From: Synechococcus sp. CS-1331
Lineage (GTDB): Bacteria; Cyanobacteriota; Cyanobacteriia; PCC-6307; Cyanobiaceae
NCBI GenBank assembly: GCA_025127975.1
Contig: JAHLYQ010000025.1
Span: 115,281-179,280, forward strand
Reading direction: 5' to 3'
Length of the DNA stretch: 64,000 bases
This document shows, one piece after another, positions 6,649 through 25,714 of this stretch. Within the stretch, counting starts at the first letter, position 1. Each line of letters opens with the position of its first letter. The notes below the pieces were generated by a model, which made no database searches, was not told the origin of the DNA, and worked only from the letters and a program-made list of their open reading frames with translations. Both the position numbers and the translations under genes were made by a program.

Positions 6649-6673
6649 GCCGGCCCTCGTAGCCTCGAGGCGC

Positions 6674-8023: not shown

Positions 8024-8039
8024 ATCATCCTTCCCCCCC

Positions 8040-8495: not shown

Positions 8496-8515
8496 ACACA
8501 ACCAACCCTTCAGCG

Positions 8516-9439: not shown

Positions 9440-9452
9440 TTGCATCCCCACC

Positions 9453-9710: not shown

Positions 9711-9739
9711 CTCGTCCACAACCAACCTCCCTGGAGCTG

Positions 9740-10156: not shown

Positions 10157-10161
10157 GCGCC

Positions 10162-11145
10162 ATGCCTCCCACCAGCCCCCACATCAGCAGCATCGGCTTC
10201 ACCACAGCCAATGCAGAAGCCACTGCCATTTTCTTCGAGCAAACCCTGGGCTTCAGCCGCGGCGAGAGCCTGCTTGTTGACGCTGGCCCCTACGCCCAGC
10301 TGCTAGGCCTGGCCGGCTCCCGGCTGAAGCTGGTGCGGCTGCGCCTGGGCGAGGAGACCCTGGAGCTCACCGAGCTGCTGAGCCTGGGCGAGGGGCTGCG
10401 GCCTGGCCGCCCGATCCCGGCCGACTCGCGCAGCTGCGACCTCTGGTTTCAACACATGTGCATTGTGGTGAGTGATCTGGAAGCCGCCAGCGCCAAGGCG
10501 CGCCAAGCCATCGCCCACGGCTCCCTGGTGGGGGTGTCCACCGCCCCCCAAACCCTGCCGGAGTGGAACACCGCCGCCGCCGGCATCCAGGCCTTCAAGT
10601 TTCGCGACCCGGAGGGCCACAACCTGGAGCTGCTGCAGTTCCCCGCAGGCAAAGGCGAGACCCGCTGGCACCGAACCGCGCCGGCCAGTGCCCCCTTCCT
10701 AGGGATCGACCACAGCGCTATCTCTGTGGCCGATACCCCGCGCAGCTGCCGCTTTTACGACGGGCTGCTGGGGTTAAAGCTGGGGGGCGATGGGGTCAAC
10801 AGCGGCCCCACCCAGGATGGGCTCGATGGCCTCCAAGACACCCGGGTGCGCATCACCGGCCACCGCTGCCCCACGGGCGCCGGCGTGGAATGCCTCAACT
10901 ACCAGCCCCCCAACAGCGGCAGGCCCAGGCCCCTCGATCAGGGCGCCCAAGACCTGGCCCACTGGCAGATCCGTCTGCGGGTAGCCGACCTGGATCGCAT
11001 CGCCGCAACGGCGCAGGCCTGCGGCGGCCAGGTGCTCCATGGCGGCGTGATCGAGCTGGGCGCGCAGGCCTCCCTGGTAGGCGCTGAACGGGCCCTGCAA
11101 CTTTCAGACCCCGATGGCCACCAACTGCAACTGCTGCAGGGATAG
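10162..11145 (+). CDS. Two-domain VOC-superfamily protein (glyoxalase/dioxygenase type)
   Basis: This 327-residue protein holds two vicinal-oxygen-chelate domains. The first runs from about 6 to 160 (starting ISSIGFTTANAEATAIFFEQ, ending FRDPEGHNLELLQFP) and the second from about 180 to 325 (starting IDHSAISVADTPRSCRFYDG, ending SDPDGHQLQLLQ). The paired H and E residues that usually hold the metal are visible in each C-terminal strand region (HNLELLQ; the second has HQLQLLQ, with Gln for Glu). Such proteins are dioxygenases, lyases or isomerases; the exact reaction cannot be read. Confidence 0.82.
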   Translation: MPPTSPHISSIGFTTANAEATAIFFEQTLGFSRGESLLVDAGPYAQLLGLAGSRLKLVRLRLGEETLELTELLSLGEGLRPGRPIPADSRSCDLWFQHMCIVVSDLEAASAKARQAIAHGSLVGVSTAPQTLPEWNTAAAGIQAFKFRDPEGHNLELLQFPAGKGETRWHRTAPASAPFLGIDHSAISVADTPRSCRFYDGLLGLKLGGDGVNSGPTQDGLDGLQDTRVRITGHRCPTGAGVECLNYQPPNSGRPRPLDQGAQDLAHWQIRLRVADLDRIAATAQACGGQVLHGGVIELGAQASLVGAERALQLSDPDGHQLQLLQG

Positions 11146-11188
11146 GCCGACCTGGGTACGTTGAGCTGAGTTTTCCTGCCCAGACCAG

Positions 11189-11686
11189 ATGGAGATCACC
11201 GTTGTGGAGCTGCTGGTGCCAGCGGCCCCCTCCACCCTGGCCCAGGCATCCCTGCTGGTGATGCGGCTGTTCCTGGGGATCTGCTTCATCCGCCACGGCT
11301 GGCCCAAGCTGCGCAACCTCAAGACCTGGGCCACGGCGATGCAGACGCCAGAGTGGCTTTGCTTTCTCTCCGCCTTCTCAATGTGGGGTGCCGGCATCGC
11401 CCTGATCCCGGGCCTGCTCACCCCCCTGGCCGCCCTGGCGATCCTGGTATCGATGGCCTACGCGGTAGTGGTTGAGCTGAAGGCGGGCTTTCCCTTCATC
11501 GGCCCTGACCCCTACCAGATTCCCCCCGGCGATTACGCCGGCCCCATGGGGGTGGGGGACCCCCCTAGCTGGGAGAAGGCGGCCATGTATGTGGTGATGT
11601 GTGCGGTGCTGGCCAGCTGCGGTGGCGGCCTCTTTTCGCTCGACAACCTGCTGATCGCCGATCTGCTCAACCAGGGGGCGGCCTGA
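11189..11686 (+). CDS. DoxX-family membrane protein
   Basis: This 165-residue integral membrane protein has four hydrophobic segments and the DoxX opening RLFLGICFIRHGWPKL. A segment before the last helix is polar and proline/glycine rich (residues about 110-130). DoxX relatives include a subunit of the archaeal thiosulfate:quinone oxidoreductase and bacterial redox-stress proteins, so a link to membrane quinones is possible but unproven. The gene lies 43 bases after the VOC gene in the same operon. Confidence 0.8.
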   Translation: MEITVVELLVPAAPSTLAQASLLVMRLFLGICFIRHGWPKLRNLKTWATAMQTPEWLCFLSAFSMWGAGIALIPGLLTPLAALAILVSMAYAVVVELKAGFPFIGPDPYQIPPGDYAGPMGVGDPPSWEKAAMYVVMCAVLASCGGGLFSLDNLLIADLLNQGAA

Positions 11687-12249: not shown

Positions 12250-13400
12250 GGGGGCGGGCCGCCCGCTTCATTGGCCTGGGGAGGCGCTGGCTGCGGATCG
12301 GCCTCAGCGGCTGCCTACTGATGGGCGGGGTGCTCATGATCGCCGCCCTGCTCCGCGGCGGCCTGGAACGGTTCGGCCCGGGGCCGTCCAACGATCTTCA
12401 GGAGCTGGCCATCCTGCTGGCCTGGCTGGTGGGTCTGCTGGTGCCGATCGCGGGCATCTACTCGGTGGCAGGGCATTACGCCTTCTGGAACGGCTGGCTG
12501 GGGAAGCTGCCCGATCCGGCCAGCATGTTTGCTGAGCAGGCCAGCTCGGCCGCCAAGCCATCGGCACGGTGTTATGTGGTGTATCTCGACGGCATCCACC
12601 AGAGCACGGAGCAACACCCGCCGCGGGTGGCGGCCCTGCTGGCGGAGCTAGCGGCCCAGCTCCCGGCCGGGACGGTGCTGATCGAGGGGATCGAGACCTA
12701 CACAATCAGCCCGGCGGAACTGGCCGCCGACGCCGGCAGTCGCTGGTTCTGGCGGCGCCTGTTCGCCCTCCAGGAGAGTCACCCCAATCCGCTGGTGAGC
12801 GGGATCTGCGCGGCCCTGGTGCAGGCCAACAACGTGATCAAGGTGGGGATCTCCGCCGACCGCCGCTATGGGCCAATCCTCAACTACGAACTGGCCCTGA
12901 AGGTGGCGCAGCGGCTGGTGGAGGGCGGCCTGCGCCAGGGCAGCGACCAGCGGATCGTGCTGCTGGGCTACAGCGGCGGCGGCGAGATGGCGATGGGCAT
13001 GGCCGATGTGCTGCAGGTGATCTGCCGCTGCCCGGTGCAGATCCTCACCTTCTGCGGCGTGTTCAGCGGCAACCAGCGCCTCAGCCAGGTGGCCGGCATC
13101 GCCATGGTGGTGGGCAGCCGCGATCCGGTGGCGGCCCTGGGCCAGCTGCTATTTCCTGGCCGCTCGCCGCTGCTACCCCTTTCCAACTGGAACAAGGCAC
13201 GCCTGGCCGGCGGGGTGAGGCGGCAGGTGGTGGCCGGCATGGGCCACAACGGCCAAAGCGGGCCCTTCTCCCCACGCCATCGCCCGGCGGTGGTCAGCCT
13301 GATCCTGCGGAGCCTGGCCTGGATGGATCGGGCCGTAGATCAGTCTCTAGATCGGGCTCTAGATCGGCCTGGATCCGCTGCACCAGGGCAAACGGACTGA
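12246..13400 (+). CDS. Membrane-anchored serine-hydrolase-like protein
   Basis: This 384-residue protein has two N-terminal membrane segments (about residues 14-36 and 50-72) followed by a soluble domain. That domain contains YVVYLDGIHQST and a nucleophile-elbow motif LLGYSGGGEMAMGM like those of alpha/beta hydrolases, and later VVGSRDPV and GMGHNG, which could supply the acid and histidine of a triad. The substrate is unknown. It is the last gene of the plus-strand operon. Its 3' end overlaps the convergent gene by 107 bases, where a 12-base repeat makes both tails repetitive. Confidence 0.65.
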   Translation: MRGRAARFIGLGRRWLRIGLSGCLLMGGVLMIAALLRGGLERFGPGPSNDLQELAILLAWLVGLLVPIAGIYSVAGHYAFWNGWLGKLPDPASMFAEQASSAAKPSARCYVVYLDGIHQSTEQHPPRVAALLAELAAQLPAGTVLIEGIETYTISPAELAADAGSRWFWRRLFALQESHPNPLVSGICAALVQANNVIKVGISADRRYGPILNYELALKVAQRLVEGGLRQGSDQRIVLLGYSGGGEMAMGMADVLQVICRCPVQILTFCGVFSGNQRLSQVAGIAMVVGSRDPVAALGQLLFPGRSPLLPLSNWNKARLAGGVRRQVVAGMGHNGQSGPFSPRHRPAVVSLILRSLAWMDRAVDQSLDRALDRPGSAAPGQTD

Positions 13401-14790
13401 CCAGCGGCAGGGTGTTGCGCAGCCGGCCCCAGGCGTTGCTGCGCTCCGAACCATGGTGGGCCAGGTCGATCGGCAGATCCTCCAGGGCCTGCTGGTAACT
13501 CCGATTGGCAGCCAGCAGGGCGGCCGACTCGGCCGCAAGCCGGGGCTCGATCGCCAGGCTCTCAGCCAGCAAGTACTGGCGCCAGATGCCATGGAGAAGC
13601 AGCGGGTAGTGATCACAGCTGCCGCTGAGGGCCTGCTGCAGCAGCGCCACGCTGTCGATGCAGAGGCCGAGGGGGCCGTAACCACCCAGCAGCAGCTGGC
13701 GACTGGAGGCCAACCGGTTGTGCACCAGCGCTACAACCTCCGTAAGCCGCGCCAAGCGGGCCAACTCAGGCTCCGATCGGATGGCGTCCGCGTAGCGAAC
13801 GGTGCCGTTGGCCCGATCGTTCTGCCAGGGGCGGGGCTGATCATTGAGGGGTTCCCAGCCGCACAGTCCCTCGGTGCCCTGATACCACTGGACCAGCAAC
13901 TGATCATCGCCGCGGCTGAGCTCCAGCTCCAGGGCGCAGTGGGGCAGCAGGGTCAGCCGCTCCTGGCCCTGGGCATCGAGAAAGCCCGTGCGCATGGGCA
14001 GCGCCAGGGCCACCTGGCACCAGCCACGCTCGGGGAGATGCAGGCTGGCACCCAACCCGAAGCTGGCGATACTGCTGCGCCAGCGGGCCCTCAGCTGCCA
14101 GCCCCCCGCCTGAAAACGATCAAACAGCTCGGCGGTGGTGCCGCAGCCTTCAAAACGGCCAGCCACCTCGGAGCTCGAGGGGGCAGGGCCCGCCAGCCGG
14201 GCACCCAGCCGGTTGAGCACCCGGGCCAGCAGCCGGTTGGCCTGGCACTGCCTGGGGCTGGGGCCCGCCGGCAGGCCTGTGTTGTGCCACACCAGGGTTG
14301 GGCCTGGGCCAGCCGGAGTGGCAGGTGGTGTGGGGGGTGAAGTGGGTGGCGGCACCGATCGGCAGCTGGCCTGTTCTGCCTCGGCCAGCAGGGCGGCGAT
14401 CGTGGCAGGCAGTGCCTCCCGGCCACCCCGCCAGAGCTCCAGGGCAGAGGGCTGGGCCCGATCAGGTGGCGGCATCAGATGGCCCAGCTCATCAAACAGG
14501 CTGGCCAGCAGCAGGGGGCTGAGCAATTGGTCGCGCAACACCACGCCCAGATCCCGCAGCGATTCGGGCAGCTCGGCCGGCATCAGACGCCAGCGCCGCG
14601 GCAATAACCAGAGCAAGGGGATCAGGCTTGAGTGATGCACCCGGGCGAGCAGTCGCCGGATGAACTCCTGGCGGCTGAGGCCCGAGGCCAGCAGGTCATG
14701 GTTGAGGGCCTCCTCCAGGGCGATCAAGGGTGGGGCCCCCACCCAGGCAGGGTCGAGGCCGAGGGGATCCGCCGCCGGGAAATGGTTCAA
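13294..14790 (-). CDS. Orphan protein at end of oxidase-GMC operon
   Basis: I do not recognise this 498-residue protein. It has a helical, leucine-rich first 130 residues, a proline-rich linker near residues 145-165 (PPPTSPPTPPATPAGPGPT), a mixed middle region with several Trp residues, and a helical end. No signal peptide and no clear membrane helix are seen. The start overlaps the stop of the GMC oxidoreductase by four bases, so it may be a partner or maturation factor of that enzyme. The C-terminal DLEPDLETDLRPDP repeat arises from a tandem duplication and overlaps the convergent gene. Confidence 0.7.
   Translation of the reverse strand: MNHFPAADPLGLDPAWVGAPPLIALEEALNHDLLASGLSRQEFIRRLLARVHHSSLIPLLWLLPRRWRLMPAELPESLRDLGVVLRDQLLSPLLLASLFDELGHLMPPPDRAQPSALELWRGGREALPATIAALLAEAEQASCRSVPPPTSPPTPPATPAGPGPTLVWHNTGLPAGPSPRQCQANRLLARVLNRLGARLAGPAPSSSEVAGRFEGCGTTAELFDRFQAGGWQLRARWRSSIASFGLGASLHLPERGWCQVALALPMRTGFLDAQGQERLTLLPHCALELELSRGDDQLLVQWYQGTEGLCGWEPLNDQPRPWQNDRANGTVRYADAIRSEPELARLARLTEVVALVHNRLASSRQLLLGGYGPLGLCIDSVALLQQALSGSCDHYPLLLHGIWRQYLLAESLAIEPRLAAESAALLAANRSYQQALEDLPIDLAHHGSERSNAWGRLRNTLPLVSPFALVQRIQADLEPDLETDLRPDPSRPGSAGSG
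13318..13372. repeat. 12-bp tandem repeat shared by two overlapping coding tails
   Basis: About four imperfect copies of a 12-base unit related to CTAGATCGGGCT lie here. Because the unit is a multiple of three it preserves both reading frames. It is read as D-R-A-V/L-D-type repeats on the plus strand and as D-L-E-x/D-L-R-type repeats on the minus strand. Confidence 0.7.
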
Positions 14791-16427
14791 CGACCGAGGC
14801 GTTCGCGCAGATGGTCGCCGACCCGCAGGGCATTGGCGATGGCCGTCAGGGAGGGGTTAACGGCCCCGATCGTCGGCATAAAGCTCGTATCAACTACATA
14901 GAGGTTGTCCAGTTCATGGGCCTTGCAGTTGAGATCGAGCACTGATGTAGCCGGGTCACTGCCGAAGCGGCAGGTGCCGGCCTGGTGCGCTACAGCCCCA
15001 ACACCCATGGCGTTCTTGACATAAATCTGGCGCTCCACCAGATGCTTCTTGAGATAGAGCTGATCCAGCATCCCGGTGAGCCGGCCGTAGAGCCGCTGGG
15101 CCGCGGTTGGGTTGTTGGGCGTGTAGTCCAGATGAATCTGCCCCTCGCCATCGATGGTCACCCGGTTGTTGGGGTCCGGCAGATCTTCTGAAGAGATCCA
15201 GAAATCAATCGCGTGCTCAGCGATTTTGTCCATCGACCAACCTGGCATCAAGAAGGTTTCGAGCGGCGCATAGCCCTTCATGATCGTGCCGTTGGTCTTC
15301 CCCGTCATCTGGATGTTCCCCATCGGATAGTCAAAGTCGGCATCCCCCAGATACCAGTCGTTGATCGAGAGCGTCTTCTGGAACACGGTGGTGTTCGGCT
15401 CATGGGCCAGGGCAACCATCGCCTTACTGTTGTGGAACATGTAGTTGCGGCCCACCTGATCGGAGCCATTGGCCAGGCCCCGGGGGTGCTTGTCATTGGC
15501 AGACATCAACAGCAGCCGGGCCGTATTGGCGGCACCACAACTCACCACCACCACATCACCCCGCACGGTCATCGGTTGACCATCCCTCTCCAGCAGCACG
15601 GCCTGCACGCTGCGGCCCCAGGCATCGGTCTCCAGACGACGCACATGGGCCCGGGTCAGCAGCGACACATTCGGGGCCGCCAGGGCCGGCCGCATGCCGA
15701 GCACGTCCGCATCGGATTTGGCATGCACCAGACAGGGGAAGCCATCGCAGCAATTGCACCTGCGGCAACGGCTAAAGGCCATGTTGGCCTCATCCAGCAT
15801 CACCCCGGTAGGGGCATGGAAGGGATGCAATCCGGCCAATCGCAGATCATCCACCAGCTTCTGGATGCGGGGCTCATGGGCCACCGGCGGATGGGGATAG
15901 GGACCACTGCAGGGGGGCTCGGTGGGATCTTCCCCCCTCTGGCCATGCACGTGATACATCTCCTCAGCCCGCTGGTAATAGGGCTCGAAATCGCTGTAGC
16001 GCAGGGGCCAGGCCGGTGAGATGCCGTCGAAGTGTTGTAGCTGCTCAAAATCCTGTTGGCGCAGGCGGAAGTGGGCAGCGCCATACATCTTCGTTGCCCC
16101 ACCCACGAAGTAATGGCTGCCGGGCTGAAACGGCTTGCCATGCTTGTCATGCCATACGTCTTTGGAGATGTAACGGCCTTTCTGAAACACCTCCTCGGCA
16201 TTCCAATTCTCAGGTTCCTGGGGCAGCCAGTCGCCGCGCTCCAACACCAAAATCTTGAGGCCACTGGGGGCCAGATGGCGCGCCAGGGTGCCGCCACCGG
16301 CTCCGCTGCCGATGATCACCACGTCGAAATGGGCCCCATCGGCCACCTCCAGCTGGGCGGCAGCGGGCAAGGGCGAAATGGCCAAGGAAGGGCCGGGAAG
16401 CTCGCTGAGGTGGGAGGGATAGGCCAT
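14787..16427 (-). CDS. GMC-family FAD oxidoreductase
   Basis: This 546-residue flavoenzyme has the FAD motif VVIIGSGAGGGTLARHL at about residue 37, a cysteine-rich segment CRRCNCCDGFPC near 223, the family stretch RGLANGSDQVGRNYMFHNS and the catalytic region HQAGTCRFG ... VNPSLTAIANALR with the expected His and Asn. GMC enzymes oxidise alcohols, sugars or aldonic acids. The cysteine-rich insert is typical of the gluconate/sorbose dehydrogenase-like branch. There is no Tat or Sec signal, so it should face the cytoplasm. It is coupled to the orphan downstream and lies 61 bases after the glucosidase. Confidence 0.9.
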   Translation of the reverse strand: MAYPSHLSELPGPSLAISPLPAAAQLEVADGAHFDVVIIGSGAGGGTLARHLAPSGLKILVLERGDWLPQEPENWNAEEVFQKGRYISKDVWHDKHGKPFQPGSHYFVGGATKMYGAAHFRLRQQDFEQLQHFDGISPAWPLRYSDFEPYYQRAEEMYHVHGQRGEDPTEPPCSGPYPHPPVAHEPRIQKLVDDLRLAGLHPFHAPTGVMLDEANMAFSRCRRCNCCDGFPCLVHAKSDADVLGMRPALAAPNVSLLTRAHVRRLETDAWGRSVQAVLLERDGQPMTVRGDVVVVSCGAANTARLLLMSANDKHPRGLANGSDQVGRNYMFHNSKAMVALAHEPNTTVFQKTLSINDWYLGDADFDYPMGNIQMTGKTNGTIMKGYAPLETFLMPGWSMDKIAEHAIDFWISSEDLPDPNNRVTIDGEGQIHLDYTPNNPTAAQRLYGRLTGMLDQLYLKKHLVERQIYVKNAMGVGAVAHQAGTCRFGSDPATSVLDLNCKAHELDNLYVVDTSFMPTIGAVNPSLTAIANALRVGDHLRERLGR

Positions 16428-16488
16428 AGCTGGGCAAGGATAAAAAATTAATTAATTAACTAACTAAATAAGCCAGAAGAGCCACGCC

Positions 16489-19161
16489 TTAAGGGGCGGG
16501 ATAACGGCTCAACTGGTTGATCATCTTGGCCACCATGGCGCTCCAGCCGGTCTGGTGGGAGGCACCCACACCACGGCCGTCTTCGCCGTGGAAATACTCA
16601 TTGAAAAGGAGCAGATCTCGCCAATGGGGATCATTTTGGAACAGCTCCACGTCGCCATTGAAGGCCCGCCGCCCAGCTCCATCGCGGCGGAAGATCCCCA
16701 CCAGGCGCTTCTCGAGCTCTAGCGACACTTCCCAGAGATTGAGCCAGTTGCCAGAGCGAGTGGGGAACTCCACCTGGAAACTGTCGCCGTAGTAGTGGGC
16801 GTATTTTTGCAACGACTCGATCAGCAGGAAGTTCATCGGCATCCACACCGGCCCACGCCAGTTGGAATTGCCCCCAAACATTGCCACCGGGCTGTCCGCA
16901 GGGCTGTAGGCCAAGATCTGGCTGTCGGAGCCCTCGGTGAAAGAATAGGGATGGTCCCGGTACACCTTGGACAGGGAGCGAATCCCATAGGAGGAAAGAA
17001 ACTCCTCCTCATCGAACAACCGCTGGCAGATCCGCCGCAGGCGGTCTTCTGGCACGAGGGTATAGAGAATACGGTCGTTATTCCATCGTCCGAGATTCTG
17101 CTCCAACCAGGTGGGAGTGGTGCGCTCGTGCACAAACCAGGCCAAGCTCTCTCGCACATCCAGCACTTGAACACGATTCACTGTTTCGCGATCGAAACTC
17201 GCTACAGCGAGCAGGGGCACTAGGCCGGAGAGCGAGCGAGTGCGGAGGTAGTCGCTACTGCCATCCGGCCGCTTGATCACGTCGTAATAGAAACCATCCT
17301 CGTCATCCCAGTTGATAAAGCCTCGATCCGACGGGGCATTCAAGGTGATCGCCAGTTGGGTGAAGTCGTAAACGAAGCGCTCACAGGTATCGGCATACTC
17401 AGGCTCCTCTCGGCTCAGCTCCACCGCAATGTTGAGCAGATTGAGGCTGAGGGAAGCCATCCAGGCCGTGCCATCGCACTGCTCGATGCGGCTGCCATCG
17501 GCCAAGGGAAAGCGGCGGTCAAACACGGCGATGTTGTCGAGGCCGAGGAAGCCGCCTTCAAACACGTTGTCGCCGGAGCGATCGTTTCTGTTTGCCCACC
17601 AGCCGTATTCGAGCAACAACTTGCGCAGGGCGGCCCGCAGAAAAGGCTGATCTGCCTGGCCGCTCTGCTTGCGGTCGATCTGGTAGATCCGCATTGCCGC
17701 CCAGGCGCCGATCGGCGGATTGGGGTCGGAGAGCGCCCACTCATAGGCGGGGGTCTGGGCGCTGGGGGCTGTGAAGTGGGGGCTACGCAGCAACATCGCC
17801 TGCTGCTTGGCCATCTCCGGATCGAAGATGGCGAAGGCCACCGCGTGGAACATCAGATCCCACTGGCAGAAATAGGGGTACTCCCAGGCATCCGGCATCG
17901 AGATCACATGGTGGGCATGGAGTCGTTTCCAAAGGGCCGTATCGGACTGCCAACGGTTAGCAGGTGGCGTGGGCTGGGTGGGATCCCCCTCCAGCCAACG
18001 AAAGACGCTCCAGCCGTAGTACTTCTTGCACCACAGCAAGCCCGCCAGGGCGGAGGAGTGAATCAAGCGGTCTTCGGCATTGAGCCCCGGCAGGGTGTGC
18101 TCAAAGAACTGCGCCCATTCCGCCTCCCGCTCCTGGAAGAGGGCATCAAAGGAGGCGCCAAAGGCAGGCTCGTTGGCCCCGGCAGCCCCCACCCTGTCGA
18201 GCTGACGGAGGCGCAGCTCGACAGTCCACTCCTCAGCAGGCGCCAGGGTGCGCTGCAACAGCCGGGCCGCCTTGGTGCCGCACTGGGCTGGATTAATGGC
18301 CTGCTCCTCAGCACCGATCAGATAGCGGTGAAAACCATCCTTCTGATAAGGGGTGGGATTTGACTGGCCGTAGAGGCGCTGGTGGTTGGTCTCGTTATCG
18401 GTGAACAACCAGGTGCCACCATCCCGGCAGAGCAACTCATAGGCCCCCAGTTGGGGCAGCTCACCGGTAACCAGGGCGTCACCGTTCAGGCCCATCGGCT
18501 GGCGCTGCTCATCGGGATAGCCCCAGGCCCAGGTGTTGCGCATCCACAGGGTGGGCAACAGGGTGAGGGGGGCAGGATCGGGGCCGCGATTGATAACCCG
18601 GATGCGAATCAGCAGATCGGTGGCTGACGCCTTGGCATACTCAATAAAGACGTCGAAGTAACGACTTTCGGCAAAGATGCCCGTATCCACCAGCTCATAT
18701 TCAGGCTCATTGCGGCTGCGCCGCCCGTTTTCATCCACCAGCTGCTGGTAGGGAAATTCGGACTGGGGATACTTGTAAAGCCCCCGCATGAAGCTGTGGG
18801 TGGGGGTATTGGCGAGGTGGAAGTAGTAATCCTTGAGATCTTCGCCGTGGTTGCCCTCGGGGTTGCCCAGGCCGAAGGGTCGCTCCTTGAGGATCGGATC
18901 GGCCCCATTCCAGAGGGCCACCGAGAAACACAAACGGCACTGCTCATCACAGATTCCCAGCAGGCCATCTTCCCCCCAGCGATAGACGCGAGAACGGGCC
19001 TGGTCGTGGGGAAAGGAGCGCCAGGCATCGCCGTCAGCGGAATAGTCTTCACGCACCGTGCCCCACTGGCGATCGGGCAGATAGCTGCCCCACAGGGTCC
19101 AGGGATAGAGGCCCTGGTCACGTTCCCGAATCCGAACGACCTCAGGGGTTGGGGGGATCAC
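16489..19161 (-). CDS. GH63-like glucosidase
   Basis: This 890-residue protein matches the bacterial GH63/mannosylglycerate-hydrolase-like glucosidases: start RERDQGLYPWTLWGSYLPDR, then WNGADPILKERPFGL, NHGEDLKDYYF, the (alpha/alpha)6 barrel segments WQSDTALWKRLHAHH, YPYFCQWDLMFHAVAF, DRSGDNVFEGGFLGLDNI and the end segment FGGNSNWRGPVWMPMNFLLI. No signal peptide is seen, so it is cytoplasmic. It would release glucose from a glucoside or oligosaccharide; glucosylglycerol/glucosylglycerate-type osmolytes are candidates but are not shown. The GTG start overlaps the stop of the GMC gene upstream, tying sugar release to oxidation. Confidence 0.85.
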   Translation of the reverse strand: MIPPTPEVVRIRERDQGLYPWTLWGSYLPDRQWGTVREDYSADGDAWRSFPHDQARSRVYRWGEDGLLGICDEQCRLCFSVALWNGADPILKERPFGLGNPEGNHGEDLKDYYFHLANTPTHSFMRGLYKYPQSEFPYQQLVDENGRRSRNEPEYELVDTGIFAESRYFDVFIEYAKASATDLLIRIRVINRGPDPAPLTLLPTLWMRNTWAWGYPDEQRQPMGLNGDALVTGELPQLGAYELLCRDGGTWLFTDNETNHQRLYGQSNPTPYQKDGFHRYLIGAEEQAINPAQCGTKAARLLQRTLAPAEEWTVELRLRQLDRVGAAGANEPAFGASFDALFQEREAEWAQFFEHTLPGLNAEDRLIHSSALAGLLWCKKYYGWSVFRWLEGDPTQPTPPANRWQSDTALWKRLHAHHVISMPDAWEYPYFCQWDLMFHAVAFAIFDPEMAKQQAMLLRSPHFTAPSAQTPAYEWALSDPNPPIGAWAAMRIYQIDRKQSGQADQPFLRAALRKLLLEYGWWANRNDRSGDNVFEGGFLGLDNIAVFDRRFPLADGSRIEQCDGTAWMASLSLNLLNIAVELSREEPEYADTCERFVYDFTQLAITLNAPSDRGFINWDDEDGFYYDVIKRPDGSSDYLRTRSLSGLVPLLAVASFDRETVNRVQVLDVRESLAWFVHERTTPTWLEQNLGRWNNDRILYTLVPEDRLRRICQRLFDEEEFLSSYGIRSLSKVYRDHPYSFTEGSDSQILAYSPADSPVAMFGGNSNWRGPVWMPMNFLLIESLQKYAHYYGDSFQVEFPTRSGNWLNLWEVSLELEKRLVGIFRRDGAGRRAFNGDVELFQNDPHWRDLLLFNEYFHGEDGRGVGASHQTGWSAMVAKMINQLSRYPAP

Positions 19162-20672
19162 AACGAAGCCTTCAGTCCCTCGGCAATGCGCAGGGCATTG
19201 GCGATCACGGTGAGTCCGAAACCCATGGCCGGACAGGCCGGAAATACGCTGGCATCCGCAATCGTGAGGTTGGCCAGCTCATGGCTGCGGCCCTGCAGGT
19301 CGACCACCGAGGTGGCCGGATTGTCACCCATACGGCAGGTGCCGCAGCTGTAGCCAATCGCCGAGAGCGGAGCTTCGCCCCGGGGGTGGGTAGGGGCCTC
19401 CTTGACCACATGGCACTCGGGATCGGCCTCCACCGCCTTGAGGGTGTCGATCCAGCGATAGACAAGCCTGTCGTGGGCTTCACGGTTATTGGGCTGGTAC
19501 GTAACTTGAATCCGATCTCCCCGCAGGCTGACGCGGTTGTGGGGATCGGGCAGCACCGGACTCATCGCCCACCAACTTATGGAACGGGAGGCGAGCTGGT
19601 TGAGGCCGAAATTGGGCAACAGCTTGGTCACCAGCGAGAGCACCGGTGGCGACTCGGCAAACAGGGCATCTTGGAGAACCCCACCGCCGTTCTGAATCGC
19701 CCCGAGCGGGAAGGAGACGTTCTTATCGCCCCAGAGGTAGTCGTTGATGGCGAAACTGCGCGGGTAGCGGCCGCTGTTGGGCTCGGTGGCCAGCTGCAGG
19801 ATCGAGGTGAGCTGGAGTTTCATCAGGTTGCGGCCCACCTGGTCGGAGCCATTGGCCAGGCCCCTGGGATGGCGGTCGGTAGCGGAGCGCAGCAGGATCG
19901 CGGGGCTGTTGATGGCGCCGGCGGCGAGCACCACCTGATGGCCCAAAAAAATCCAGCTCTGGCCATCAACCACGGCCTCCACCCCCCGCACCTCCGTACC
20001 GCTGGGCTTGACATGCAGCCGCCTTACCTCCGCCCCAGACCTGACCAAAAAGGAGGTTGAAGCACGGGCCAGATCGACCCCGAACAATTCCGCATCGCCG
20101 CTTGGGTCGGCAGCCGACTCAGACCAGCTCAGCGGCAGGGGATAGGGGCGCACGCCCTGTCGCCCAAAGGCGAGGCGCAGCTCCTCAAAAAAAGGCTCAA
20201 CTGGCCTGGGCGCAAAGTCGTATGGCCTGGCTGCGGCCGGTTCGGTGGGATCGATCCCCCGCTGTCCGTGGACCCGATAAAGGCTTTCCGCCTGGTCATA
20301 CCAGGGCTCGAAGTCGCCCTGGCTGAGCCCCCACCCGGGCGCCTGGCCAGCCTGCAGGGCCAGGCCTGCCCATTCCTGATCACGCAGCCGCTCAAGCACG
20401 CCACCCCAGATTTTGGTGTTCCCACCGAGGGCATAGATCGTCTGGGGGGAGAAAGGATCCCCATCGGTGCCGAACCACTGCTCCTTAGGGTGATATCGAT
20501 CCTTGCGGAACAGATCCACATCGGCGACGTTCTGATCGGCCAGGGGCATCTGCTGCCCCCGCTCCAGCAGCAGCACCGCATAGCCGCCACTGGCTAGGGA
20601 GCGAGCCATGGTGCCACCGGCAGCTCCGCTACCGATGATGATGAAGTCGTAATGGCGGTCGTCGATGATCAT
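19158..20672 (-). CDS. GMC-family FAD oxidoreductase with altered active site
   Basis: This 504-residue protein has the FAD motif FIIIGSGAAGGTMARSL at residue 10 and the GMC stretches IYALGGNTKIWGG and RGLANGSDQVGRNLM. At the catalytic site it differs from its neighbour: the His of the HQAGTCR-type motif is Tyr (GYSCGTCRMG), and the Asn of the VNPSLT-type motif is Gly (MGFGLTVIANALR). The cysteine-rich segment of the other GMC gene is absent. It is probably a distinct subfamily with different chemistry. It lies 11 bases after ctaE and overlaps the glucosidase start, inside the oxidase operon. No signal peptide. Confidence 0.85.
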   Translation of the reverse strand: MIIDDRHYDFIIIGSGAAGGTMARSLASGGYAVLLLERGQQMPLADQNVADVDLFRKDRYHPKEQWFGTDGDPFSPQTIYALGGNTKIWGGVLERLRDQEWAGLALQAGQAPGWGLSQGDFEPWYDQAESLYRVHGQRGIDPTEPAAARPYDFAPRPVEPFFEELRLAFGRQGVRPYPLPLSWSESAADPSGDAELFGVDLARASTSFLVRSGAEVRRLHVKPSGTEVRGVEAVVDGQSWIFLGHQVVLAAGAINSPAILLRSATDRHPRGLANGSDQVGRNLMKLQLTSILQLATEPNSGRYPRSFAINDYLWGDKNVSFPLGAIQNGGGVLQDALFAESPPVLSLVTKLLPNFGLNQLASRSISWWAMSPVLPDPHNRVSLRGDRIQVTYQPNNREAHDRLVYRWIDTLKAVEADPECHVVKEAPTHPRGEAPLSAIGYSCGTCRMGDNPATSVVDLQGRSHELANLTIADASVFPACPAMGFGLTVIANALRIAEGLKASL

Positions 20673-20683
20673 GGGTTAGGAGC

Positions 20684-21262
20684 TCAACTGCGCTGCCAGA
20701 CGTAAATGAGCACGAAGAGGATGATCCAGATCACATCCACAAAGTGCCAGAACAGGGATGTAGCCTGCACCCCCTGCTCTCCCCCCGCATAGTTCTGGGG
20801 GATAAATGACTTCACCAGCATCAGGCCCATCAGGAACACCCCTGTGGCCACATGCAGGCCATGAAAGCCGGTGAGAAGGTAGAAGGTGCCCCCAAACACC
20901 CCACTGGTTAAGCCAAACTGCAAACCACTCCACTCAAGGGCTTGGCCGTAGAGGAAATAGGCGCCAAGGGCCATGGTGAGTAGCCAGAAAGCCCGAAATC
21001 CCATCAGATTCCCCTTGCTCATGCAGCGCTCTGCCAGCCAGATCGTGCCCGAACTAGAAATCAATACGACCGTGTTGAGCAGGGGTGTGCGCCACTCGAG
21101 GCCTTCCACACCGGGGGGGAGCCAATTGAGCGCAGCGGTTTTCAGCAGGGCGAAGCCGCTGAAGAATGCCAAAAAGATGACACTCTCAGAACAGAGAAAG
21201 ATGATGAAGCCCGTGAGGTTGTGCTTCGGGTGCTCAGTGTTCAAATGAGGTGTAGCAGTCAT
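20684..21262 (-). CDS. ctaE: Haem-copper oxidase subunit III, alternative oxidase (ARTO) type
   Basis: This 192-residue membrane protein has about five helices. It shows the subunit III landmarks LTGFIIFLCSESVIFLAFF, LNTVVLISSSGTIWLAE, FYLLTGFHGLHVATG and FWHFVDVIWIILF, with the conserved Glu and His residues of the subunit III fold. It lacks the two extra N-terminal helices of mitochondrial subunit III, as usual in this bacterial type. The ATG overlaps the ctaD stop. Placed with the CuA-less ctaC it belongs to the alternative respiratory terminal oxidase rather than the cytochrome c oxidase. Confidence 0.93.
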   Translation of the reverse strand: MTATPHLNTEHPKHNLTGFIIFLCSESVIFLAFFSGFALLKTAALNWLPPGVEGLEWRTPLLNTVVLISSSGTIWLAERCMSKGNLMGFRAFWLLTMALGAYFLYGQALEWSGLQFGLTSGVFGGTFYLLTGFHGLHVATGVFLMGLMLVKSFIPQNYAGGEQGVQATSLFWHFVDVIWIILFVLIYVWQRS

Positions 21263-22935
21263 GCGCTGGCCTCCTGCAGGGTGAGCTGATTTTCAATCTC
21301 TGCCTGGTGCTCAACCAATGGTTCTCCAGTGCCGTAACCATAGGGGCGTGCAATCACGGTCGGCACGTGCTCACCAAAGTTGTCTTCAGGTGGCGGTGAT
21401 GGCAGCAGCCACTCAAGACCAATGGCATTCCAGGGGTTATGGGGGGCTTTCGGGCCCCGCACCCAGGAACTCACCATGTTGAGCAGGAAGGGAATAATCG
21501 ACACTCCCAGCAAGAAGGCGCCCAGGCTAGCCAGCACATTCCAGAAGGCAAATTCCGGGTCGTAACTTGAAACCCGCCGGGGCATGCCCATCAAACCAAG
21601 GGGGTGCATGGGCAGGAAGTTGAGGTTGGCCCCAACAAAGGTGAATAGGAAATGGACCTTGCCAAGGCCCTCGTAGGGCATGCGGCCAATAAACTTGGGG
21701 AACCAGTGATAGATAGCGGCAAAGATTCCCATCACCGCTGCCCCATAGATCACATAGTGGAAATGACCCACCACAAAATAGGTGTTCGATACGTGAATAT
21801 CGACCGGCACCGTGGCCAGCATGATGCCAGTGATACCGGCAAATACAAAGTTGAACAGGCCACCCAGGCAAAAAAGCATTGGCGTGGTGAGGCGCAGTTT
21901 ACCGCGCCAAATGGTTCCCAACCAGGCAAACACCTTTACCCCCGTAGGCACGGCAATCAGCATCGTAGAAAACATAAAGAAGTTACGCATCCACTGCGCC
22001 ACTCCACTGGGGAACATGTGGTGCACCCACACAACTAAACCCAGTGCCACGATGATGAAGGAGGCCAGGCAGACGTAGACGTAGCCAAACAGTGGCTTAC
22101 GCGAGTAAACCGGGAACAGCTCGGAGAAGATGCCAAACACCGGCAGAATGATCACATACACGGCCGGGTGGGAATAAAACCAGAAAAAGTGCTGATAAAG
22201 CACTGGGTCGCCCCCTCCCTCTGGCTGATAAAAGCTGGTGCCAAAGCTGAGGTCCATCAGCAACATCACCGCTCCACCGGTGAGGGCCGGCAGGCCGATC
22301 AACTGCAGACTTTGGGCTGCAAGGGCCGTCCAGCAGAACACCGGCATGCGGAAGAAGCCCATGCCAGGGGCGCGCATGCGCAGAATCGTGGTGACGAAGT
22401 TGAGCGCTCCCATGATCGAGGAGACACCCGAAAGGGCCACGGCTGTGATCCACAGGCCTTGGCCATTGATAAAGTGGCCCAGCGGGTTCTGGGTGCTCAC
22501 CGGTGGATAGGACCACCAGCCGGAATAGGCCGGCCCACCAGGAACGAAAAAGCTGCCGATCAACAGGGCGCCAAAAATGGGAACCAGCCAGAAGGCCACC
22601 GCATTAAGCCGCGGAAAGGCCATATCTGGAGCGCCGATCATGGTGGGGATCAGCAGGTTATTGAGCCCATTCAGCACCGGAAAGATAAACAGGAACAGCA
22701 TGATTGTTCCATGCATCGTGTAGATGCCGTTGTAGACAGTGCGGTCGACCAGGTCGGCCGCTGGCGTGATCAATTCACCGCGGATGATCATGGCCAGCAG
22801 GCCACCGATCAGAAAGAAGAAAAAGGCCGTAACGATGTACTGAATGCCAATCACCTTGGCATCTGTGTTGAAGCCGAAGTAACGGCTCCAGGAGGTGTTT
22901 TCGGGAGGACTGGGCGGGAAGGTAGCGGAGGTCAT
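21259..22935 (-). CDS. ctaD: Haem-copper oxidase subunit I, alternative oxidase (ARTO) type
   Basis: This 558-residue catalytic subunit has about twelve helices. The low-spin haem ligand is in YTMHGTIM, the CuB/Tyr motif is FFWFYSHPAVYVIILPVFG, the CuB histidines are in WVHHMF, and the two haem ligands are in YFVVGHFHYV. The YSHPAVY form, in place of HPEVY, is the A2-type proton-channel arrangement. It reduces O2 to water. It lies 5 bases after ctaC and overlaps ctaE by four bases. Whether the electron donor is quinol depends on subunit II, see there. Confidence 0.95.
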   Translation of the reverse strand: MTSATFPPSPPENTSWSRYFGFNTDAKVIGIQYIVTAFFFFLIGGLLAMIIRGELITPAADLVDRTVYNGIYTMHGTIMLFLFIFPVLNGLNNLLIPTMIGAPDMAFPRLNAVAFWLVPIFGALLIGSFFVPGGPAYSGWWSYPPVSTQNPLGHFINGQGLWITAVALSGVSSIMGALNFVTTILRMRAPGMGFFRMPVFCWTALAAQSLQLIGLPALTGGAVMLLMDLSFGTSFYQPEGGGDPVLYQHFFWFYSHPAVYVIILPVFGIFSELFPVYSRKPLFGYVYVCLASFIIVALGLVVWVHHMFPSGVAQWMRNFFMFSTMLIAVPTGVKVFAWLGTIWRGKLRLTTPMLFCLGGLFNFVFAGITGIMLATVPVDIHVSNTYFVVGHFHYVIYGAAVMGIFAAIYHWFPKFIGRMPYEGLGKVHFLFTFVGANLNFLPMHPLGLMGMPRRVSSYDPEFAFWNVLASLGAFLLGVSIIPFLLNMVSSWVRGPKAPHNPWNAIGLEWLLPSPPPEDNFGEHVPTVIARPYGYGTGEPLVEHQAEIENQLTLQEASA

Positions 22936-22940
22936 CGGGC

Positions 22941-23888
22941 TCAGGCGTCGTGCGGCAGGGAGTTGGATCCGGGAACGTTCACCTGGGGCGGTGGGGCTGG
23001 CGGCACGGTGGCCCAGCCTGGGTTTTTCAGCTGTTTACGCTCGCCGTATTCGATTACTGCATCACTTAAACCAGGCTGCAGCGGTTGGCTAGCGGCGTTC
23101 TTCAGCCAAGCCTGGTAAGCCTCGGGGCTCTCGACCACCACATCGGCCTGGTTGGCGGCAAACCAGGTGCCACTGAACTGGGAATCGCGCAGGCGGTAGC
23201 GCCCCTCCCGCGTTGGAGTGAGATTGAAGTTGATCGCCCGGCCAGGAATTACGTCCTGCTTAAGGCGAAATGCTGGAATGTAAAAGCCATGAATTACGTC
23301 GTCTGACACCAAACGGAAGCTGACGGGCTGATCAACCGGCAGATGCAGCTCGGTGGTGGAAACATTGGCGCTTGGATAGCGAAATTCCCAAGACCACTGG
23401 CGGGCAATCACCTCCACCTGCTCGGCCGGCAAGCGATCGGCGGCGTAGCCCCCCTGGTCTTCCACAGGATTAGCCAAATGGATGTGCTCCATCGGACCAA
23501 GAACTCCGAGTTTGGTGTTGACGCGCATGGCGTAAACCGCGATGGCCATCACAAGCAGTAAGGGAATGACCGTCCAGATCACCTCGAGCCGGGTATTTCC
23601 CTCAATCGGCTCCGCATCGCTTTCGTCGTATTTCTCGGCGCGGTGCTTAAGCAGCACCCAAGCCATCACCGACACCACCGACCCAAACACGAAGGTGCCG
23701 ATGCCCGTTTCAAAGCTGAACAGCCCATCGACCAGTGGTGCCGCGGTAGAGGCCTGCACCGGCAACCAGCTGTAGGACTGCTGGGCCATCCACCAGCTCA
23801 AGGCCACCAACACCCCAATCCAAGCCAGCAAGCCGGCTAAGCCGGCGCTGCTGATTGGTGGGCGGGAGCGCTCAGAAGAGTTACTCAC
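22941..23888 (-). CDS. ctaC: Oxidase subunit II lacking the CuA site (ARTO type)
   Basis: This 315-residue subunit has two N-terminal membrane helices and the cupredoxin domain with the aromatic entry motif RQWSWEF. The first copper-ligand histidine position survives in DVIHGFYIP (H200). The cluster usually read as C-S-E-x-C-G-x-x-H-x-x-M is replaced by D-S-Q-F-S-G-T-W-F-A-A-N at 235-246, so both Cys, the bridging Glu position, the second His and the Met are gone. Loss of CuA is known for cyanobacterial CtaCII (ARTO), thought to oxidise quinol. The GTG start overlaps the preceding stop. The C-terminal tail is proline rich. Confidence 0.92.
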   Translation of the reverse strand: MSNSSERSRPPISSAGLAGLLAWIGVLVALSWWMAQQSYSWLPVQASTAAPLVDGLFSFETGIGTFVFGSVVSVMAWVLLKHRAEKYDESDAEPIEGNTRLEVIWTVIPLLLVMAIAVYAMRVNTKLGVLGPMEHIHLANPVEDQGGYAADRLPAEQVEVIARQWSWEFRYPSANVSTTELHLPVDQPVSFRLVSDDVIHGFYIPAFRLKQDVIPGRAINFNLTPTREGRYRLRDSQFSGTWFAANQADVVVESPEAYQAWLKNAASQPLQPGLSDAVIEYGERKQLKNPGWATVPPAPPPQVNVPGSNSLPHDA

Positions 23889-24529
23889 GGCAGGGCCTCG
23901 CTGAGATCAGCACCAGCGGCGAGCAGCTGGTCGGCGCTGACATGCACGCCAAACTCACCGGCCAACTCGGCCCCGAGGGTGCCGTGCAGACCGATCACCA
24001 GGAACAGCCCGAGCCCAACCAGCAAATAGAGCCACTGCACCTGCCGGCCCATGTCGCGGCGCCAGACAAAGCGCTGATAGCCCCGCCACACCGTCATCGC
24101 GACGATCACCAGCAGGATCACCACGCCTCCGACGCCGTGCCACAGCATGGTTTCCATGCTCTGCAGCCCGATGGTGCTGGTGACCCCGGGCAGGGGCACC
24201 GCCAGCAGCATCTCGAAGAAGCCAGCCGCCACGGTGAAGAAAGTGACGATGGAGCATGCCAGCAGGTTGTACCAACCCACATCGTGGAAGCCGCCACGGG
24301 TGACGGGCAGGGCCAGAAAGCGGAACACCCGCTTCTCAACTGGGTAGAGGGCGCCGGCTATATCAAAGGCGATGGCAATCACAAAAAGCCCGATGGTGAA
24401 GTGCACCAGGTTTGGATGAATGGGCAGGGCGTAGGGCAGACCATTGGGCCCCAGATCGGCTGCCAACTGTTCAATCGGTGAGCTGGAGGAAATGAATTGG
24501 GTGCCAGCAACCAGAAGGGGGGCGGCCAT
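23885..24529 (-). CDS. DUF2231 membrane protein, oxidase-associated
   Basis: This 214-residue protein has four to five hydrophobic segments and the DUF2231 hallmark LPIHPNLVHFTIGLFVIAIAFD, with conserved His residues in IHPNLVHF that could bind haem or metal. A second His-rich point is METMLWHGVGG. I use ATG 24529, next to an in-frame GTG at 24532; either overlaps the previous stop. Two such genes before ctaC2-D2-E2 are, as I recall, a common arrangement in cyanobacterial ARTO loci, which suggests a cytochrome-like electron-transfer or assembly partner; this is inference. Confidence 0.8.
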   Translation of the reverse strand: MAAPLLVAGTQFISSSSPIEQLAADLGPNGLPYALPIHPNLVHFTIGLFVIAIAFDIAGALYPVEKRVFRFLALPVTRGGFHDVGWYNLLACSIVTFFTVAAGFFEMLLAVPLPGVTSTIGLQSMETMLWHGVGGVVILLVIVAMTVWRGYQRFVWRRDMGRQVQWLYLLVGLGLFLVIGLHGTLGAELAGEFGVHVSADQLLAAGADLSEALP

Positions 24530-25026
24530 CACACCAGCCCCGAGCGCATTGCCTGCACCACCGGCACCGTGTGCAGGCCGTACACCCAGATCAACTGATT
24601 GCCGAGGGTCACCTGCAGCACAATTAGGGCACTGAGCAGTCCACCGGCGCCTAGGAAAGCCAGGGGCAGCTGCTGGGGGTCCTTGCTGCGGATCACGTAG
24701 CGCCAGCCGGACATCATCGACAGCACCCCAGCCAGCGACCAGCCGATCGTGCTGTGCAGGTTGAGAATGTCGCGGGAGGCGCCGTAGGGATTGGCCAGCC
24801 CCGCCTCAACCTGTCCAAACATGATCGCCACAAAAATAGCTGCAGTGGCAAACAGCAGGTTCCAGAAGCTGACCTCAAACAGCGCTGACCGGCGGGTCAC
24901 CACTCCGATCAAATCAAATACAAACGAGATCAGCCCCATGGCGATTACGAAGTGCACAACGATCGGATGGATGGTGTCCATCCAAGGGAGGTTGTGATCG
25001 TTGAGCGGCGGTAGCAGCTCAAGCAT
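24529..25026 (-). CDS. DUF2231 membrane protein, first gene of oxidase operon
   Basis: This 165-residue protein is a relative of the next gene: DTIHPIVVHFVIAMGLISFVFD carries the IHP-x-x-VHF histidines, and LNLHSTIGW gives another conserved His. Four membrane helices follow. I start at ATG 25026 (MLELLPPLNDHNLPW); an in-frame GTG at 25056 lies two bases from a strong hairpin and is less likely. The stop overlaps the next start. It is the head of a nine-gene minus-strand unit that runs to 13.3 kb. Confidence 0.78.
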   Translation of the reverse strand: MLELLPPLNDHNLPWMDTIHPIVVHFVIAMGLISFVFDLIGVVTRRSALFEVSFWNLLFATAAIFVAIMFGQVEAGLANPYGASRDILNLHSTIGWSLAGVLSMMSGWRYVIRSKDPQQLPLAFLGAGGLLSALIVLQVTLGNQLIWVYGLHTVPVVQAMRSGLV

Positions 25027-25057
25027 GGGGCCCAAACCAGCAGGGTTGACCTCCACG

Positions 25058-25085
25058 TTGCTAAGCCCCCGCAGGGGGCGAGCAA
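25058..25085. promoter_or_regulatory. Strong stem-loop in 5' leader of oxidase operon
   Basis: TTGCT and AGCAA flank a perfect GCCCCC-GCA-GGGGGC hairpin. It lies about 30 bases upstream of the ATG of the first DUF2231 gene, in the region that would be its mRNA leader. There is no U-tract on either strand, so it is not a classical intrinsic terminator. It could shield the ribosome site or stabilise the message. Confidence 0.55.
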
Positions 25086-25198
25086 AGCTGTGATGATTTG
25101 CTACACGAATGTGCGCATTGCCTGACTGGAAACTTGCGCCCGGGGCAATTGTTTTCCAAGGAAAGATTTAGGGTGAAAGATTCTATGTTTCTGCCCAG
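25086..25198. promoter_or_regulatory. Divergent promoter region, oxidase operon / hdeD-like
   Basis: This AT-richer gap separates the two divergent genes. On the minus strand TAGAAT and on the plus strand GATTTAGGGTGAAAGATT could contribute -10-like elements. No known operator was recognised. The assignment is by position. Confidence 0.35.
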
Positions 25199-25714
25199 GT
25201 GACGGTTCCTGCCTCTCCCACCCTGCGCTGGGTCAGCGCCGCCCTGCTGTTCGCCGCGGCCGGGCTGTCGATCGTGCTGCCGTTTGTATCTGCCACCTTG
25301 CTGACCATCGCCGTTGGCGCCGTATCGGTGATTGCCGGGGTGTCCCAGCTGCTGCGGCTCACTGGCGAAGCCGACATCAAGGGCAAGATTTTCCGGCTAC
25401 TTTCCGGCTTGCTGTACTTGGCCGGCGGAGTGTGGGTTCTGGCATTTCCGGTCGCCAGCGAGGTGAGCCTCACCCTGTTTGTGGGCTTCCTGCTGGCCTT
25501 TGAAGGGGTGATGGAATTGGCCGCCGCCGCCACCGGCCAGGGGGCCGCCCGTGGCCTGGTGCTGATTGATGGCATTGTCACCGCCGTACTTGGCGGCATG
25601 CTCATCGCAGAGTGGCCCTCCGACAGCATCTGGGCAATCGGCATGCTGTTTGGCATTGGTCTGGCCTTTTCAGCCGTCAACCTGCTCACCGCCCCCAGCC
25701 AGGCGGCCACCTGA
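25199..25714 (+). CDS. HdeD-family (DUF308) membrane protein
   Basis: This 171-residue protein has six short hydrophobic helices arranged as three pairs, with GAVSVIAGVSQLLRL, FVGFLLAFEGVMELAAA and MLFGIGLAFSAVNLL repeats. This is the DUF308/HdeD pattern, known from an acid-resistance membrane protein of enterics; its molecular role is unclear. The start is GTG 25199. The last 45 bases overlap the 3' end of the convergent oxoprolinase gene. Confidence 0.8.
   Translation: MTVPASPTLRWVSAALLFAAAGLSIVLPFVSATLLTIAVGAVSVIAGVSQLLRLTGEADIKGKIFRLLSGLLYLAGGVWVLAFPVASEVSLTLFVGFLLAFEGVMELAAAATGQGAARGLVLIDGIVTAVLGGMLIAEWPSDSIWAIGMLFGIGLAFSAVNLLTAPSQAAT

Follow-up and report, generated by a model that had tools for sequence, protein, structure and literature searches.

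In Anabaena sp. PCC 7120, the type-1 alternative respiratory terminal oxidase (ARTO or Qox, there Cox3) is encoded by the operon alr2729-alr2730-coxB3-coxA3-coxC3 (excerpt of PMC6616624), and a review counts ARTO as a possible ferric reductase (excerpt of PMC7676907). Its electron source and purpose have stayed open. Here we describe an ARTO locus of Synechococcus sp. CS-1331, situated in a 64-kb stretch of contig JAHLYQ010000025.1 (GCA_025127975.1, positions 115,281-179,280 of the forward strand; this whole stretch is hereafter called the window). In this locus the oxidase genes are followed by genes for a flavoprotein of the GMC family (GMC1), a glycoside hydrolase (GH63) and a second GMC protein (GMC2). 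The nearest solved relatives of both GMC proteins are the membrane-bound fructose dehydrogenase (7w2j) and the gamma-alpha FAD glucose dehydrogenase (6a2u). We found that the unit consists of two old cyanobacterial modules that have been joined, namely module A (ARTO and GMC1) and module B (GH63 and GMC2, often together with a short-chain dehydrogenase/reductase, SDR). With middling confidence we read it as a type-1 ARTO operon ending in a catalytically retired FAD protein, GMC1, whose dedicated role is to partner the oxidase, followed by GH63 and GMC2 as a sugar-oxidising pair. Present in 57 of 57 ARTO genomes of the order and in 87 of 110 sampled from the class, and encoding a protein that has lost the active site but not the FAD motif, the GMC1 partner gene offers a direct genetic handle on ARTO. 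Order, class and family refer to PCC-6307, Cyanobacteriia and Cyanobiaceae, respectively, and numbers with L and G denote loci read and genomes.

The oxidase and its linkage to GMC1

All nine open reading frames that an earlier note on this DNA had assigned to a single unit were recovered on the minus strand at 13294-25056 (coordinates checked). Pfam names their products, in gene order, DUF2231, DUF2231, COX2, COX1, COX3, GMC, MGH1-like/GH63, GMC and, for the last, none. At five of the eight junctions the neighbouring genes overlap by 4 nt, and the other gaps measure 5, 11 and 61 bp, much as the earlier note had described them (gaps of at most 61 bp and mostly 1-4 nt overlaps). The oxidase genes ctaC (22941-23888, minus strand; COX2/COX2_TM), ctaD (21259-22935, minus; COX1, 503.6 bits, with a SHPAVY motif) and ctaE (20684-21262, minus; COX3, 115.8 bits), for subunits II, I and III, respectively, are adjacent in the operon-like order of a type-1 ARTO. 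The CuA ligands of subunit II are missing: its motif reads RDSQFSGTWFAAN, as opposed to CAELCGPYHGGM in the other subunit II of the genome. The motif was replaced in 32 of 32 aligned ARTO-type ctaC sequences, and all further aligned ctaC were also devoid of CuA, except that of L296, which keeps CuA and is no ARTO. The genome (2.51 Mb in 47 contigs) carries a second COX1 on contig C15 beside a CuA-bearing subunit II, i.e. the unit's oxidase occurs beside a conventional one, as in Anabaena; no match to cytochrome bd was found in the genome. The earlier note's identification of a cyanobacterial ARTO without CuA is upheld by the CuA-less subunit II and the ctaC-D-E order, and a type-1 ARTO, presumably oxidising quinol, is supported as an identity by sequence.

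The GMC1 gene (19158-20672, minus strand) follows ctaE. Out of 120 genomes sampled from the order, 57 had a ctaC of the ARTO type (300 bits or more, with the next matches below 180 bits), and in each of the 57 GMC1 was found downstream on the same strand, at a median distance of 2320 bp from ctaC (two exceptions, 4.7 and 6.4 kb). A GMC1 ortholog was missing from all 63 ARTO-less genomes (Fisher p 1.2e-35 for the co-occurrence, kinship of genomes ignored). In the class sample of 242 genomes, an ARTO-like ctaC was detected in 118 at E <= 1e-55, and the 110 genomes with at least 255 bits were used. A GMC1-type gene, always downstream, lay at most 8 kb from ctaC in 87 of these 110 genomes (88 of 115 loci, including one GMC protein in genome G187, contig C80, L207, that has no catalytic pair and keeps the Cys cluster). 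The pairing of ARTO and GMC1 extends through much of the class, which is broader than the earlier note supposed. In a further collection of named loci, i.e. the best 80 of 407 GMC1 relatives (close relatives that partly overlap the order and class genomes), ctaE was present in 79 of 80, and in the remaining one the contig starts 99 bp before GMC1. Strains with the full unit include Synechococcus sp. RCC307 (L129), and Synechococcus sp. WH7803 (L173) is an example with ARTO-GMC1. A few kb of other sequence separate ctaE and GMC1, still on the same strand, in L205 (G066) and L206 (G093). The loci L202, L203 and L204, from genomes of about 1.7 Mb, contain the full six-gene ARTO-GMC1 set, and most sampled genomes of their genus have no ARTO.

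The 27 unlinked class loci were made up of 11 with a GMC1-type match on another contig, one with a match 19.5 kb off, 12 from family f32 and three others. Six f32 loci were read (L189-L192, L195 and L196), each with a complete DUF2231-DUF2231-ctaC-D-E set without GMC. Eight weaker class genomes were left out of the count. G304, where ctaC was not strong, has ARTO and GMC1, G191 and G202 (L209 and L210) combine ARTO with a GMC that has the Cys but not the pair, in G207 a GMC2-type gene lies 7.5 kb past ctaE (L287), and G196 has the CuA-bearing oxidase of L296. The last three, G180, G313 and G324 (L194, L295 and L294, respectively), had no GMC in the stretch read, where ctaC stood alone (with DUF2231 in L194) and neither ctaD nor ctaE was seen. 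Strong GMC1 without strong ctaC was found in five class genomes (G121, G161, G169, G199 and G304). Among 27 ARTO loci without GMC1 that were read (several incomplete), seven had an NDH-2-like gene on the same strand in or beside the ARTO genes (L193, L194, L288, L291, L292, L293 and L297), and this flavoprotein is a possible substitute where the ARTO genes are without GMC1.

Two DUF2231 genes lie directly 5' of ctaC, as in most ARTO loci read, namely a (24529-25056, minus; 175 aa; 118.7 bits), which is the first gene, and b (23885-24532, minus; 215 aa; 129.2 bits), both for membrane proteins. Four His are invariant in each, H30, H35, H101 and H162 in a (in all 32 sequences aligned, of which a few share one genome) and H39, H44, H132 and H197 in b (32 of 32). 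Haem or metal binding would fit these His, and the AF2 model of DUF2231a is a four-helix bundle (pLDDT 74.8). Comparison with solved structures by sequence gave no match (E up to 1), and Foldseek gave cytochrome bd II chain at E 0.027 and a bo3 chain and b561 at E 0.3-0.6, with none at E <= 0.001. With no significant match in sequence or fold, the proteins were not taken to be a known cytochrome. Cyanobium sp. FGCU6 (L172) has a second DUF308-DUF2231-DUF2231 set downstream of GMC1.

Loss of the active site in GMC1

His481 and Asn524 of GMC2 (14787-16427, minus strand) occupy the positions that we take to be the catalytic pair of GMC enzymes. In alignment with fructose dehydrogenase (8k6k), His481 meets the His after the N1146A site and Asn524 the Asn 43 residues further on, which fits the H1147/N1190 of PDB titles. 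Two alignments were used, which together cover all 88 full-length GMC1-type matches listed outside the family. In the first, sequences sharing their last 300 residues were counted once, matches with fewer than 380 aligned residues were dropped, and proteins were typed by their best BLASTP match to GMC1 or GMC2 of the window; the second, of GMC proteins of the ARTO clade, was not de-duplicated. In the first alignment His481 and Asn524 were present in 93 of 93 GMC2-type proteins, and the four Cys of the CxxCxxCDGFPC segment, all kept in the window's GMC2, in 90 of 93. The GMC1 clade did not have the His-Asn pair in a single one of 189 proteins (104 of the first set, 82 and 3 of the second), and had lost the Cys cluster in 186 of 189, keeping it in three basal proteins. 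The earlier note's view of both GMC proteins as dehydrogenases is not supported by these counts. In the 104 GMC1-type proteins of the first set, the first pair position is held by Y (35), G (17), S (16), H (9), F (9), L (5), N (4), Q (4), V (3) or A (2), and the second by G (86), S (15) or P (3). In the 82 of the second set, the two positions read NS (33), HS (25), YG (14), YS (6), NG (2) or FG (2). The window's own GMC1 has Tyr and Gly there, i.e. not the residues of a catalytic GMC protein, and has lost the Cys cluster as well.

The three basal proteins, from L207, L209 and L210, are ARTO-linked GMC proteins with Asn-Ser in place of His-Asn and with all four Cys. They are GMC2 by the BLASTP rule and on the ARTO side by the tree (they are missing from a first tree), where they branch at the base of that side (split support 100/100, midpoint root). 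As they have the Cys without the pair, the pair appears to have been given up before the Cys segment. The simplest reading of the alignments would be that Asn was lost first and then the Cys segment, with His kept in part of the clade and drifting elsewhere.

The FAD-binding GxGxxG motif of GMC1 is kept, G14, G16 and G19 being invariant in 23 aligned sequences. The dN/dS of GMC1 against three relatives was 0.085, 0.157 and 0.125 (0.032-0.054 for ctaD), and such low values indicate purifying selection on a maintained protein and not a decaying gene. The structure model of GMC1 had a mean pLDDT of 65, with 187 residues below 50, and its best matches, fructose and glucose dehydrogenases, were used for naming the subfamily alone. 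Since GMC1 is without the pair and GMC2 has it, only GMC2 can plausibly oxidise a sugar, and for GMC1, to judge from its residues, partnership with ARTO as a flavoprotein is likelier than the function of a normal dehydrogenase. The Cys segment of GMC2, which is nearest to FAD glucose and fructose dehydrogenases, sits at the place of the Cys segment of these enzymes in the alignment, and may hold an Fe-S centre.

The GH63-GMC2 module

The GH63 protein (16489-19161, minus strand; 890 aa) matches MGH1-like_GH (PF22422; 74.2 vs a cut-off of 27 bits) and Glyco_hydro_63 (PF03200; 39.0 vs 22.4 bits). It has remote similarity to 4j5t (profile E 1.3e-7), in which the C-terminal, Glu-containing block aligns. 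In GMC1, GMC2 and GH63 no twin-arginine motif was found and no signal peptide by eye, which suggests that the sugar chemistry of GH63 and GMC2 is probably cytosolic. Of the 120 genomes of the order, 32 have some match to this GH63; in 31 of them it is an ortholog, and all 31 have ARTO. The ortholog directly follows GMC1 in 16, is 8.7-18.2 kb off on the same contig in 12, and is otherwise at the opposite contig end (one) or on a separate contig (two). In view of the 57 of 57 linkage of ARTO with GMC1 and of these 16 of 31, the gene order is conserved beyond this genome, and an arrangement restricted to this genome, which the earlier note regarded as fatal to its idea, is excluded. GH63 directly follows GMC1 also in 54 of the 72 named loci with more than 1.5 kb of room, and the 4-nt overlap of GMC1 and GH63 seen here recurs in 7 of 15 relatives (gaps were taken from the most upstream start codon, and large negative values are artefacts). 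Among the matches listed in the class, with GMC2 at 540 bits or more, GH63 and a GMC2-type gene were at most 12 kb apart in 35 of 54 genomes, 31 of them with both on the same strand. Out of 31 GH63-GMC2 loci outside the family, 22 were read; an SDR like that of the window was present in 19 and a VOC protein like that of the window in eight, and no ARTO genes were seen in the 22.

In four distant loci, ARTO meets a GMC protein of the catalytic type. They were picked, not randomly sampled, from contigs on which a GMC2-type gene was listed together with an ARTO-like ctaC. L288 has, on one strand within about 17 kb, ctaE-D-C, two DUF2231, DUF308, NDH-2-like, GMC2-type, GH63 and SDR genes. L287 and L302 combine a CuA-less ctaC-D-E with SMP-30, VOC, DoxX, SDR and GMC2-type genes within about 12 kb, and in L303 a GMC2-type gene is next behind ctaE. 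Subunit II was without CuA in four of four and the GMC protein had His and Asn in four of four. Since the four belong to families other than that of the window, ARTO's tie to sugar oxidation is no peculiarity of the window's lineage, and as far as sequences can tell these meetings favour a functional tie.

Within the family, GH63-GMC2 is often flanked by DoxX, VOC, HbpS/GlcG, SMP-30 lactonase, SDR and NDH-2-like genes, all of which are present in the window at 3823-11686. They are DoxX (11189-11686, plus strand), VOC of the glyoxalase superfamily (10162-11145, plus), HbpS/GlcG-like (9740-10156, plus), SMP-30/gluconolactonase (8462-9439, plus), the SDR (6674-7555, minus) and a Pyr_redox_2 flavoprotein that is NDH-2-like (3823-5193, plus; NDH2_C match below cut-off; in 19 of 80 named loci). 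The VOC and SDR genes recur beside module B, the latter across the class, and the SDR passes the cut-off of the NCBIfam glucose 1-dehydrogenase subfamily (230.4 vs 215 bits). With gluconolactonase, this SDR and GH63 nearby, the sugar-oxidation context proposed in the earlier note is supported. Glucosylglycerol was considered as the substrate and is not favoured: GgpS (TIGR02398 over cut-off) occurs in 50 of 120 genomes of the order, 17 of which belong to the 31 with the GH63 ortholog while 33 do not have this GH63, and it has no match over cut-off in the window's genome. A small reading frame with a Nif11 domain (9453-9710, plus; 43.5 bits) lies between the lactonase and HbpS-like genes. Two adjacent membrane proteins on the minus strand (5126-5938 and 5935-6750) are potassium-channel-like by eye, with TVGYGD in the first and the divergent TIGTSV instead in the second.

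The ninth gene (13294-14790, minus strand; 498 aa) is an orphan of no family. Of the 49 named loci extending as far as GMC2, three have it (three of 80 overall), and in a set of 36 loci it was seen in L034 only. A nine-gene unit, as the earlier note had it, was therefore rejected, and the conserved unit consists of eight genes, with the orphan probably outside. The promoter of the unit is probably in the short divergent intergenic stretch 5' of the first gene (25057-25198, from coordinates). A divergent DUF308 gene precedes DUF2231a in many relatives too. In a weak scan of 12800-25800, the one promoter-like site was on the plus strand, within ctaE (21177-21205), and the minus strand had none. 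Terminator-like sites numbered 12 (9.8 +/- 3.0 in shuffles), all of them within genes and none at any junction of the nine. A promoter or terminator separating the oxidase genes from those behind them, against which the earlier note had warned, is thus not seen at the level of this weak scan, and the genes may be transcribed together. Adjoining the unit is a gene for a fused hydantoinase A/B protein of the oxoprolinase type (25670-29473, minus; 1267 aa), in a position that is kept in many close relatives.

Proposed function and comparison with known systems

In the reading set out at the beginning, GH63 would release a sugar from an intracellular glycoside, and GMC2 would oxidise it on its FAD via His481/Asn524. 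Electrons would leave GMC2 through the Cys cluster for plastoquinone at the membrane or, via GMC1, for ARTO, which would reduce O2 with them, and the SMP-30 lactonase of the neighbourhood would open the lactone. GMC1, with no alcohol oxidation left to it, may dock the dehydrogenase, relay electrons or gate the oxidase. A presumably working sugar-oxidising pair behind the oxidase genes is a concrete lead on what feeds ARTO, and the joined GH63-GMC2 genes and the repeated meeting with ARTO in distant lineages suggest that a specific internal sugar has a respiratory outlet here. Several observations speak against this reading. Nine of 104 and 25 of 82 GMC1-type proteins retain the first residue of the pair, His, so that Asn alone is lost throughout. 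Fourteen ARTO loci read with more than 1.5 kb behind ctaE have no GMC there (L189-L193, L195-L197, L199, L289, L291-L293 and L298; some of their genomes have GMC1 elsewhere), and GMC1 is not required by every ARTO. The GMC protein behind ctaE in L303 is of the catalytic type, i.e. a dead GMC is not the sole kind found there, and the four distant loci were chosen for having the two genes listed on the same contig. Moreover, this GH63 is absent from 26 of the 57 ARTO genomes of the order, module B stands without ARTO in the 22 class loci read, and a cytochrome subunit of the fructose-dehydrogenase kind is absent among the nine genes of the unit. The earlier note's idea of one indivisible system is not supported by the same 26 genomes and 22 loci.

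That note had both GMC proteins oxidise sugar and feed quinone, with ARTO burning the quinol. A single strand, tight junctions and conserved order agree with such a chain, as do the resemblance of GMC1 and GMC2 to FAD glucose and fructose dehydrogenases and the catalytic GMC behind ctaE in L303, but the pair missing from all 189 proteins of the GMC1 clade makes it very improbable. Of its interpretation as a whole, ARTO, the loss of CuA, synteny and the sugar context stood, while two active GMC proteins, nine genes and an indivisible system were not supported. GMC1 could instead act on ARTO as a factor for assembly or stability, with a purely structural FAD and with module B as a metabolic neighbour under the same promoter, but this is rather unlikely. 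The strict linkage to ctaE in the order, the loss of catalytic residues in a protein otherwise conserved, and the 26 ARTO genomes without this GH63 are what one would expect of such a factor; the kept FAD motif, the ARTO operons without GMC1 and the four distant meetings of ARTO with a catalytic GMC2-type protein are not.

GMC1 might also be an enzyme with other flavin chemistry, neither an alcohol nor a sugar dehydrogenase, that needs no His/Asn pair. The conserved FAD motif and purifying selection can be cited for this, and fatty acid photodecarboxylase, which appears in the list of structure matches, is a GMC member with other chemistry. The residue at the first pair position is free to vary (Y, G, S, H, F, L, N, Q, V or A), a pattern more in keeping with relaxed constraint than with a newly catalytic residue, and we regard the proposal as quite improbable. 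We give similarly little credence to a role of ARTO in ferric iron reduction, or as another plasma-membrane electron outlet, with GMC1 as part of the route and no sugar respiration. According to the review, deletion of ARTO in Synechocystis PCC 6803 reduced ferric reductase activity and iron uptake (excerpt of PMC7676907), but the recurrent neighbours found here are genes of sugar oxidation (iron genes were not searched for). Finally, ARTO could be more than a simple quinol oxidase, namely a flavin-fed one. GMC1 would then be a conserved redox subunit taking electrons from cytosolic dehydrogenases (GMC2 where attached) to the CuA-less oxidase, perhaps via DUF2231 haems, and an NDH-2-like or catalytic GMC protein would fill its slot where it is lacking. 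We consider this unlikely; if true, a former dehydrogenase that relays electrons to a terminal oxidase would represent a novel type of respiratory module.

Among described systems, the Anabaena Cox3 operon is like module A in having two extra genes before the oxidase genes, a CuA-less subunit II and a conventional oxidase in the same genome, whereas the excerpt of PMC6616624 ends it at coxC3 and names no GMC, GH63 or second GMC. The DUF2231 pair is likened to alr2729/alr2730 by position alone. No publication joining GMC or DUF2231 with ARTO appeared among the papers listed by searches of the open-access literature, subscription journals being mostly outside these searches. The window's GH63 resembles, by remote similarity only, the GH63 processing alpha-glucosidase 4j5t and the mannosylglycerate hydrolase-like PF22422. 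The NDH-2-like proteins of other ARTO loci are FAD proteins, 25-30% like the window's 3823-5193 protein, and differ from GMC in their Pyr_redox_2 fold (by Pfam, for L193 and L194 only). Unlike the 7w2j and 6a2u complexes, the unit has no small or cytochrome subunit among its nine genes, and GMC1 differs from both enzymes by the loss of the pair and of the Cys segment. GMC2, in contrast, is like both, with His, Asn and a Cys-rich segment at the same place.

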